Below, piece after piece: positions 28,492-41,812 of a stretch of DNA of 64,000 nucleotides. The first letter of the stretch is position 1. Every line of letters begins with the position of its first letter. A program made the translations under genes and the position numbers. Source of the DNA: Methanospirillum hungatei JF-1 (GTDB taxonomy: Archaea; Halobacteriota; Methanomicrobia; Methanomicrobiales; Methanospirillaceae). Location: contig NC_007796.1 of NCBI RefSeq assembly GCF_000013445.1, forward strand, positions 2,702,936 through 2,766,935. The letters run 5' to 3'. The notes below the pieces were generated by a model. It did no database searches. It was not told where the DNA came from and saw nothing but the letters and a program-made list of their open reading frames with translations.

Positions 28492-28880
28492 AACAATCGT
28501 GTGTTTTTTTCTCAAAAAGAATCATAACCACGATAGCTGATCGATCAGGCGATTTCTCATGGGTTGCATCTGGTTTTCAGAAAAAATTCTGTGAGAGAGA
28601 AACCAGAAGATATTAGATGAAATTTAAAATTTCTCCCAGTTTCAACAGTTGCAACCGGTTGCAACCATCGATTCTGTCAGAGTATTAATCAGATTTCCAG
28701 AGGATCAATGTGCGGATCTGTTCAGGTCGCGGAGAAGGGATCCACGCTCAACCATGTATCAGAAGACGACTGAATTTATTTATATGCTCTTCTTATACCG
28801 GGCTTGATAACACACGATTTAGGCAAAATATGAGCAAAATCTATTAATACTATACTTCATATATTAATCCTTGATATATT
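28492..28880. promoter_or_regulatory. Histone upstream region
   Basis: About 390 AT-rich bases before the histone gene. It holds an 18-bp perfect palindrome (28648-28665) and TATA-like elements at 28778-28785 (TTTATATG) and around 28845-28870 (ATACTATAC, CATATATTAA). The start codon has no clear Shine-Dalgarno, so a leaderless or weakly led transcript is possible. Confidence 0.4.
28648..28665. promoter_or_regulatory. 18-bp perfect palindrome upstream of histone gene
   Basis: GTTGCAACCGGTTGCAAC equals its own reverse complement and also contains a tandem GTTGCAACC/GGTTGCAACC. It is 215 nt before the histone start. A perfect 18-bp palindrome is unlikely by chance in a short region and is typical of a dimer-binding operator. 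Confidence 0.45.
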
Positions 28881-29090
28881 ATGGCAGATTTACCACTTGC
28901 AGCCGTTGCCCGTGTCGCAAAGAACAATGGAGCTGAACGGGTCGGAGCAGATGCTACCCAGGCACTTGTTGAACATGCGGAAAATTACCTGGCAAAACTT
29001 GTAAAGGAAGCAAACAAACTCTCCATCCATGCCGGTCGGAAGACTCTCAAGGCCGAAGATATTGAGATGGCAGCAGAGAAATTCGCCTAA
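28881..29090 (+). CDS. Archaeal histone
   Basis: A 69-aa histone-fold protein (LPLAAVARVAKNNGAERVGA at the start, RKTLKAEDIEMAAEKFA at the end) without tails, like HMfA/HMfB. It forms dimers and higher multimers that wrap DNA. The conserved loop residues of the family (RVG near 20, R-K-T near 53) are present. The gene is a single transcription unit, followed by a hairpin and a T-run. Confidence 0.96.
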   Translation: MADLPLAAVARVAKNNGAERVGADATQALVEHAENYLAKLVKEANKLSIHAGRKTLKAEDIEMAAEKFA

Positions 29091-29104
29091 CCTCTTTTTC
29101 TTAT

Positions 29105-29132
29105 AAGGACATTATTACCGTAGTCCTTTTTA
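29105..29132 (+). terminator. Hairpin-T-run terminator of the histone gene
   Basis: AAGGAC (29105-29110) and GTCCTT (29123-29128) form a 6-bp stem with a 12-nt loop, running directly into TTTTTAAG, 15 nt after the histone stop. Poly-T also occurs just before it (CTCTTTTTC). Confidence 0.6.
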
Positions 29133-29242
29133 AGTTCATTTCACAGTATACGAAAAACCAGATTCATGAGAAAACCCCCTATACCGACAGGATTTTTGTC
29201 CATACATTTTTGGTTGGGGATCATCAATTGACAATCCTAACC

Positions 29243-29272
29243 GGGGGTGATGTTACCCCCAGTCTCCTTTTT
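29243..29272 (+). terminator. GGGGGT/ACCCCC hairpin with T-run
   Basis: GGGGGT-GATGTT-ACCCCC forms a 6-bp GC-rich stem followed by a pyrimidine-rich tail containing five T. It resembles an intrinsic terminator, but lies 150 nt beyond the histone gene and its own terminator, so it might end another short transcript. Confidence 0.4.
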
Positions 29273-29532
29273 CCCAGTTCACGCAATTTTCTTCGTATGA
29301 ATCCAGATAATAACACAGTTTATGGTTCTTATTTATTTTTGCTGAATTAAGAAGCATATTTTTAAGAGTTTCGAATAAATTAGTTAAGATTTATTAAATA
29401 TTACAAATATTAGTCAATTTCGCAGAATAATTTTGATGAGGATTTAATTTAAGAATCAGAATTATTGAAAAATACATTAGGAGAGAAATATAATTAAATT
29501 CGACCATTATTTAAAAGTCTATTCTATATTTC

Positions 29533-39663: not shown

Positions 39664-40152
39664 TCACCGGTTTGCATGAGTGAGGATATGATAAATTTCA
39701 GGGATAATAATGTCCCGGGTAGCAAGTTCTGCGGCATTTTTTGACCCAGGTATACAAAAGATGGCTTTCCCATCAATGATACCTCCCACAGCCCTGCTTA
39801 ATACTGTCCTGGTTCCAACCTCTGCAAAACTTTTCATGCGGAATAGTTCCCCAAAACCGTCAAGTCTCTTATCAAAAAGTGGTTCCACTGCTTCAATGGT
39901 GCAGTCATCGTGAGTTATCCCAGTACCCCCAGTCAGGATAATGCAGTTCGCTTCAGAAAGAGCCTTGTGAAGAGCTTTCTGGATCTTTTCAATATTATCG
40001 GGAATGATTTCAGTTCTGATAACCGGGATTGATGACTCCTGAAAGAGTGATTGTATTGCTTTTCCTGCTGTATCTTCTTTTTCTGTTCTGGATGTAGAGA
40101 TCACCAGAATGATCGTCTGAACAGATATCTTTTGAATATGAGAGGGATCCAT
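39664..40152 (-). CDS. moaB: Molybdenum cofactor protein MoaB/MogA family
   Basis: A 162-aa protein with the molybdopterin-binding TGGTGITHDDCTIEAV and the IPGSKNAAELA stretch. The family adenylates molybdopterin before metal insertion, needed for the Mo/W-dependent formylmethanofuran dehydrogenase and formate dehydrogenase of methanogens. The gene points away from the replication origin next to it. Confidence 0.92.
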   Translation of the reverse strand: MDPSHIQKISVQTIILVISTSRTEKEDTAGKAIQSLFQESSIPVIRTEIIPDNIEKIQKALHKALSEANCIILTGGTGITHDDCTIEAVEPLFDKRLDGFGELFRMKSFAEVGTRTVLSRAVGGIIDGKAIFCIPGSKNAAELATRDIIIPEIYHILTHANR

Positions 40153-40213: not shown

Positions 40214-40239
40214 CCCCCACCCCTTTGTTTCCACTGGAA
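40214..40239 (-). repeat. Origin recognition box, left
   Basis: Read on the minus strand: TTCCAGTGGAAAC followed by AAAGGGGTGGGGG. This is the archaeal ORB pattern, a dyad core with a G-string. The G-string points left, away from the AT-rich region. Confidence 0.85.
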
Positions 40240-40289
40240 AGATGGATCGTCTTTCACCCACAACATCTTTCGCACCTGCTTCCTTCATA

Positions 40290-40365
40290 TACAATCTTTC
40301 ATTTTTCTTAATTTTTTAAATTTTTTATTATCTTATAATAAAATCGGTATCTTTTTATGTACTCG
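40290..40365. other. AT-rich duplex unwinding region of the origin
   Basis: A run of nearly pure A/T with long T tracts (for example TTTTTTATTATCTTATAA) between the two recognition boxes, a low-stability stretch expected for strand opening. Confidence 0.7.
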
Positions 40366-40435
40366 AGCTGACCTATACCACAGAAAGTCTATCCTATTTT
40401 TTAAAAAACTACATGGCATGAGTCAAAGTAAGTGC

Positions 40436-40460
40436 TCCAGTGGAAATGAAGGGGTGGGGG
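40436..40460 (+). repeat. Origin recognition box, right
   Basis: Plus strand: TCCAGTGGAAATG followed by AAGGGGTGGGGG. It is the inverted copy of the left box with two differences, and its G-string points toward cdc6. The TATAATT just after it may also be the cdc6 promoter, so the initiator could regulate its own gene. Confidence 0.85.
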
Positions 40461-40537
40461 TATAATTCTTCAGACACCTGAATACTCCACTAGTATTATT
40501 GGAGTACCGATCGTACAATAGAGGGATTACCTGTTCC

Positions 40538-41812
40538 ATGACACAAGATATGAATGACAGTCCTGGACTTTTTGATAAATATCTCTCAGAGAATCGGATT
40601 TTTCGGGACCGTGAGGTACTCCGCCATTCCTACCGGCCTCATATTCTTCCTCACCGGAAACCTCAGATAGATCAAATAGCGGCCATTCTGGCACCAGCAC
40701 TTCAGACAGAAACTCCCTCAAATATTTTAATATACGGAAAGACTGGAACAGGAAAGACTGCATCTGTCCGATATGTCGGATCAGAGCTGGAGTCAGTAAG
40801 CGCCAGAAGGGGGACCGTCTGCAGAGTCATCCATCTGAACTGTGAAGTCATTGACACTCAGTACCGGGTTTTGGCACAGATTTCCAAGTTAATCATGGGT
40901 GAGGATGAAACACCAAGTGACAAGATTAAAACTCATATCCCCATGACCGGGTGGCCGACAGATCAGGTGTATAGTGAACTTAAGAATCAGATTGAACTTA
41001 ATTCCGGTGTTTTCATAATAATTTTAGATGAAATAGACAAGCTCGTCAAAAAAAGTGGGGATGATACCCTCTATAATCTCACCAGGATTAATACTGATCT
41101 CAACCGGTCTAAAGTATCCATTATCGGGATCTCCAACGATCTCGGATTTAAAACTTTTCTTGATCCCAGGGTTTTATCATCCCTGTCAGAAGAAGAACTC
41201 GTTTTTCCCCCCTATAATGCCCCTCAGCTCTGTGACATTCTTCAGCAGCGTGCAGTGATAGGTTTTGCAGAAGATGCATTGGAAGATGAAGTCATTCCTT
41301 TGTGTGCTGCACTCGCTGCCCAGGAGCATGGCGATGCAAGGCGGGCTCTTGACCTCCTCCGGATATCAGGTGAGCTTGCTGACAGGGAGAATGGATCAAA
41401 GGTCACCGTTGAACATGTGAAAAAGGCCCAGGCAAAGATAGAGACTGACAGCATGGTAGAGTGTATCAGGACGCTGCCTACACAGAGCAAAATTGTGTTA
41501 TACTGCATGCTTCTTTTGCACCGGGCTGGTCAGCGGATCTTCATCTCAGGAGATGTTACGAGAATATATAAAGAACTCACTCCGTTTCTTGAGATTGATG
41601 TTCTTACCGCACGAAGGATATCAGACCTTATTTCAGAACTCAATATGCTCGGCGTTATCAATACAAGGCTGGTAAACCGGGGTCGCCATGGGAGAACCAA
41701 AGAAATGTGGTTTGATACTAATACGGACAAGATATGGGAGGTAATCATGGAAGAGTCAGATGGACGTCTCGCACAGGTTGATGAACAGATTGTGGTCCAG
41801 ATATTACGGTAA
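40538..41812 (+). CDS. cdc6: Cdc6/Orc1 replication initiator
   Basis: About 424 aa from ATG 40538 (MTQDMND); a second ATG lies at 40550, and an upstream TTG at 40499 is less likely. AAA+ motifs: Walker A GKTGTGKT (67-74), Walker B FIIILDEIDKL and sensor 1 IIGISNDLGF. The C-terminal winged helix ends near RHGRTKEMWF. Archaeal Orc1/Cdc6 binds ORB elements and loads MCM; the adjacent inverted boxes are its expected sites. A TATAATT at 40461-40467 precedes it. Confidence 0.95.
   Translation: MTQDMNDSPGLFDKYLSENRIFRDREVLRHSYRPHILPHRKPQIDQIAAILAPALQTETPSNILIYGKTGTGKTASVRYVGSELESVSARRGTVCRVIHLNCEVIDTQYRVLAQISKLIMGEDETPSDKIKTHIPMTGWPTDQVYSELKNQIELNSGVFIIILDEIDKLVKKSGDDTLYNLTRINTDLNRSKVSIIGISNDLGFKTFLDPRVLSSLSEEELVFPPYNAPQLCDILQQRAVIGFAEDALEDEVIPLCAALAAQEHGDARRALDLLRISGELADRENGSKVTVEHVKKAQAKIETDSMVECIRTLPTQSKIVLYCMLLLHRAGQRIFISGDVTRIYKELTPFLEIDVLTARRISDLISELNMLGVINTRLVNRGRHGRTKEMWFDTNTDKIWEVIMEESDGRLAQVDEQIVVQILR

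Follow-up and report, generated by a model that had tools for sequence, protein, structure and literature searches.

Chromosomal origins of the oriC1 type have been studied in Sulfolobus and Haloarcula, where inverted origin recognition boxes (ORBs) lie either side of an AT-rich stretch and are each needed for origin activity (PMC12141716, PMC3936714). Orc1 binds directionally as a monomer in these systems and MCM is loaded between the opposing boxes (PMC12141716, PMC3936714, PMC6742236). The extended G-string of Haloarcula ORBs has been called halophile-specific and tied to high salt, and it is essential for origin function; in the same genus an ORB-rich region makes a neighbouring origin less active, probably through titration of Cdc6 (PMC3936714). 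For the Methanomicrobia, Ori-Finder 2 provides a published ORB motif, TCCA[GC]T[GT]GAAA[CT][AG]A[AT]GGGGT, which was itself derived from database origins (PMC4164010). Paired inverted ORBs, some extended by GGGGGT, are found at orc1/cdc6.1 in the Methanomassiliicoccales, together with two isolated ORBs away from orc1 that are listed for one genome only (PMC4153887).

The locus described here lies in a 64-kb window (the whole stretch of DNA that was analysed), which represents positions 2,702,936-2,766,935 of the closed 3,544,738-bp single contig of Methanospirillum hungatei JF1. We conclude with high confidence that the site is the main chromosomal replication origin of this organism, of the oriC1 type. 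An initial annotation of the window had read it as a textbook archaeal origin, and this reading is supported by the inverted ORBs, the AT-rich stretch, the adjoining orc1 gene, conservation and a coarse turn in GC skew. The probable origin of the Methanospirillum type species is thereby placed to the base. The JF1 genome paper makes no mention of an origin or of Cdc6 (PMC4704411), and the accessible parts of the literature on Methanospirillum and origin recognition boxes yielded no published placement of the JF1 site, for which a database prediction (a DoriC entry) may exist. The features identified are listed in Table 1.

Table 1. Features of the JF1 origin region and ORBs elsewhere. Positions are those of the window unless marked as genome positions or preceded by an L handle.
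Feature	Position	Strand	Sequence or evidence
MoaB/MogA-like gene, left flank, divergent from orc1	39664-40152	-	Pfam MoCF_biosynth, E 1.2e-32
Left ORB with extended G-tail	40214-40238	-	TCCAGTGGAAACAAAGGGGTGGGGG; Ori-Finder 2 Methanomicrobia motif; kept in congeners
AT-rich stretch, candidate duplex unwinding element	40284-40361	none	AT content and nearest-neighbour energy
Right ORB with extended G-tail	40436-40460	+	TCCAGTGGAAATGAAGGGGTGGGGG; kept in congeners
Conserved dyad between right box and orc1	40483-40506	none	TACTCCA-N10-TGGAGTA; 10 congeners retain the TAGTATTA-TGGA core
Initiator gene orc1/cdc6 (Orc1-1 type; 424 aa)	40538-41812 (ATG at 40538)	+	Pfam Cdc6_lid and Cdc6_C
Solitary ORB, intergenic, no G-tail	genome 151,164-151,182	+	Perfect core
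Solitary ORB, intergenic, no G-tail	genome 1,656,216-1,656,234	-	Perfect core
Solitary ORB, intergenic, no G-tail	genome 2,198,210-2,198,228	+	Core with one mismatch
ORB-containing conserved noncoding block with rigid spacing, in front of grpE	genome about 150.73-151.19 kb (L157 about 2130-2600)		
Untailed ORB between convergent genes, copies	L130 2549-2568; L134 2463-2482; L147 2519-2538; L149 2993-3012		

The two inverted 25-bp elements of the initial annotation were borne out to the base. They are identical at 23 of 25 positions, stand 197 bp apart at 2.743 Mb of the chromosome and have their G-tails pointing outward, as had also been claimed. When the window was searched with a box pattern of 24 positions, allowing up to three mismatches, two matches were obtained (none in 100 shuffles), and the Ori-Finder 2 Methanomicrobia motif likewise matched exactly twice; both searches returned the two origin boxes. 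Across the 3.54-Mb genome the core TCCAGTGGAAANNAAGGGG (17 fixed positions) occurs without mismatch at four sites and with a single mismatch at a fifth, and the only paired sites are the origin boxes. No similar DNA was present in the phage collection, and a phage or provirus origin was rejected for this site.

Between the boxes the 75-bp AT-rich stretch that had been described was readily recognised. Positions 40284-40358 are 86.7% AT, the highest value for any 75 bp of the window, and the least stable 75-bp duplex, calculated from nearest-neighbour energy, is located at 40287-40361. In congeners the DNA between the boxes has diverged beyond alignment and its AT-richness has been retained. 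A second strongly AT-rich stretch, which contains no ORBs, is found at 28700-29500 of the window, reaching 84% over 75 bp (29329-29403).

The start codon of orc1 is 77 bp past the right box. The encoded protein has AAA+, lid and winged-helix domains, and the nearest solved structures are those of Aeropyrum Orc1 (2v1u_A, E 3.7e-101) and Sulfolobus Orc1-1 (2qby_A, E 4.1e-97); these relatives, with the Pfam matches, confirm that the pair was correctly placed directly upstream of cdc6/orc1. The gene was conserved in all 41 genomes searched. JF1 has a second orc1-like gene, a distant paralogue (26% identity) at 517.6-518.7 kb, and no ORB was found near it at up to two mismatches. Gene directions had been said to diverge from the site, which holds for the immediate neighbours, orc1 and the MoaB/MogA-like gene, but not for the genes further left, which lie on both strands. 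The conserved dyad in front of orc1 is probably the promoter or operator of that gene.

Sulfolobus oriC1 (ORB2-DUE-ORB3 with orc1-1, in S. islandicus and S. solfataricus) and the JF1 site share inverted ORBs around an AT-rich stretch, an adjoining orc1-1 and the same ORB core; JF1 differs in having only two boxes, a longer gap and an extended G-tail on each box (PMC12141716). The oriC1 of Haloarcula hispanica and other haloarchaea is similar in its two inverted ORBs with extended G-string, its AT-rich stretch and its adjoining orc1/cdc6 (PMC3936714, PMC3528665), whereas JF1 is a non-halophilic methanogen and no inner G-rich inverted repeat was seen between its boxes. Both JF1 boxes also match the motif of the predicted Methanomicrobia origins (Ori-Finder 2/DoriC, PMC4164010). 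The layout matches the Sulfolobus/Haloarcula mechanism in every feature that a sequence can show, and origin binding, helicase loading, unwinding and firing would be expected to proceed by analogy with other archaea. Orc1, the product of the adjacent gene, would occupy each box as a monomer whose direction is dictated by that box, and the two copies would flank the AT-rich stretch, turning their winged-helix/lid sides towards it. These opposed copies would load two MCM helicases onto the AT-rich stretch, giving rise to two outward forks. The JF1 site is almost certainly the origin; it is built like other archaeal origins and is ordinary of its kind, the less expected feature being the plainer copies of the box at a few conserved positions far away, considered below.

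The initial annotation had proposed looking for the boxes upstream of cdc6 in close relatives, and among the 11 Methanospirillum genomes with contigs extending to this region, 10 were found to carry the inverted pair upstream of orc1; a twelfth genome (G006), in which the contig stops before either box, is outside this count. Inversion, G-tail and a start-to-start spacing of 208-229 bp are all kept in the congeners. The exception, G002, has the right box and no recognisable left box, the left position being ∼120 bp from a contig end. Outside the genus, ORB clusters were located at orc1 in nearly all Methanomicrobiales examined. Most of these relatives have at least three boxes, often including an untailed ORB that lies ∼100 bp in front of orc1 and is continuous with a TATA-like stretch (e.g. 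GGGGTTATATCTCC), whereas Methanospirillum has the pair alone.

GC skew in JF1 was sampled in 20-kb stretches approximately every 60 kb, covering about a third of the chromosome. The sampled cumulative skew has its minimum at ∼2.65 Mb and its maximum at ∼0.73 Mb. When the chromosome was split at the box pair the arms differed in skew with a permutation p of 0.002, a value that is optimistic because the test ignores correlation between neighbouring bins, as are those of 0.03 at the site for third-codon-position skew alone, which is weaker, and of 0.0024 for the closed species G001. G001 was sampled in bins at 85-kb intervals, and its skew minimum falls at 2.05 Mb, compared with 2.096 Mb for the boxes. 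The amplitude in the sampled JF1 stretches is weak. When two breakpoints were fitted freely, the best solution began in the bin centred on 2.69 Mb, with starts near 0 Mb almost as good. The coding strand follows the predicted arms, with 58% versus 41% of genes on the plus strand. A skew minimum at the site had been anticipated; a turn was indeed detected near it in two closed species, but with a resolution of 60-85 kb rather than a few kb. The agreement between the two species is a stronger point than the p values.

An origin is not the only function that could be proposed for boxes directly upstream of orc1. They might be only operator sites through which Orc1 controls its own gene, with replication starting elsewhere, and the untailed ORB close to orc1 in other Methanomicrobiales does look like an autoregulatory site. 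However, such an operator leaves unexplained why another box, inverted, lies at a distance of 197 bp and why the spacing is kept, as well as the AT-rich extreme, the G-tails common to both boxes and the skew turn in two chromosomes, and this explanation is considered highly improbable. Autoregulation may coexist with origin function at the orc1 boxes.

Away from the origin, JF1 has three further ORBs, all solitary (Table 1). By simple counting, about 0.08 such sites per genome would be expected by chance, and a reversed control pattern gave no match in 12 Methanospirillum genomes. Judged by flanking genes, all three have orthologous positions in congeners. The ORB at 151,164, upstream of grpE-dnaK, is kept in all 10 genomes in which the region is visible; its distance from grpE is 430 bp in eight of these congeners and 1.47 kb in the other two, while those at 1,656,216 and 2,198,210 each recur in five genomes. 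No counterpart of the grpE ORB was found within 1.5 kb in 18 genomes of other genera. The isolated ORBs of the Methanomassiliicoccales were listed for a single genome, whereas those of Methanospirillum hold their positions genus-wide and differ from the origin boxes in the tail.

The presence of these conserved ORBs, one of them inside a rigidly spaced noncoding block upstream of grpE, would be compatible with a chromosome that has several origins, of which the orc1 site is one and others are marked by solitary ORBs (0.151, 1.656 or 2.198 Mb); in some archaea it is common for a chromosome to have more than one origin (PMC6742236). Yet each of the other sites is a single box, lacking a G-tail, an adjoining orc1 and a skew minimum in the sample, and the second orc1-like gene has no ORB nearby at up to two mismatches. 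Additional origins at these positions are considered very unlikely, and the pair at orc1 is preferred as the main origin.

The noncoding block upstream of grpE is present in a single copy in JF1. It consists, in order, of the ORB with GCGCG, CAAACCGAATnnTTTAT, GCGGGTG, ACCGCA, GCGCG and CTAAC..AGGTTAAT, and the DNA between these elements is unconserved. In each of the eight sequences GCGGGTG is positioned at a distance of 99-101 bp from the box. A noncoding RNA was considered for this block and rejected, there being no Rfam match and no covariation; the consensus energy was -1.88 kcal/mol, and one pair had a two-sided change among the eight sequences. Given that no known RNA family was matched and no covariation was observed, fixed protein sites on DNA are likelier than an RNA, and the block may be a multi-protein DNA site.

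The origin boxes and the other ORBs of the genus are separated by their tails. The G-tail GGGGT[G/A]GGG is carried by 19/19 origin boxes and by 0/33 non-origin boxes, and so within one genus the G-string distinguishes origin boxes from non-origin boxes that are equally conserved. As the G-string is present in a non-halophilic methanogen, its extended form is not limited to halophiles, and this finding combined with the split between origin and non-origin boxes provides a testable statement on what the G-string is for. The solitary ORBs, which are conserved in position and sequence, may be titration or regulatory sites, comparable to datA or to haloarchaeal oriC2D. A more speculative extension, which we put forward tentatively and regard as doubtful, is that Orc1 has two classes of site with the G-tail as the switch between them: G-tailed origin pairs would load helicase, and untailed singles at fixed positions (upstream of grpE and at the two other JF1 sites) would bind Orc1 without loading, serving for titration, reset or regulation in a manner comparable to bacterial datA/DARS. 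No published description of conserved solitary-ORB positions or of the tail split was found.

Three of the 33 non-origin boxes fall within long reading frames and lack a counterpart at the corresponding position elsewhere, and are for these reasons probably due to chance. The branch comprising G003 and G007 has two further groups of non-origin ORBs, one of which is 7 kb from the origin. In the branch of G002, G003, G004 and G007 an untailed ORB was observed between convergent genes, and no JF1 counterpart was located in the 64-kb window. In G002, G003 and G007 this ORB and the origin pair are separated by ∼7 kb, and in G004 it was found on a short contig of its own.
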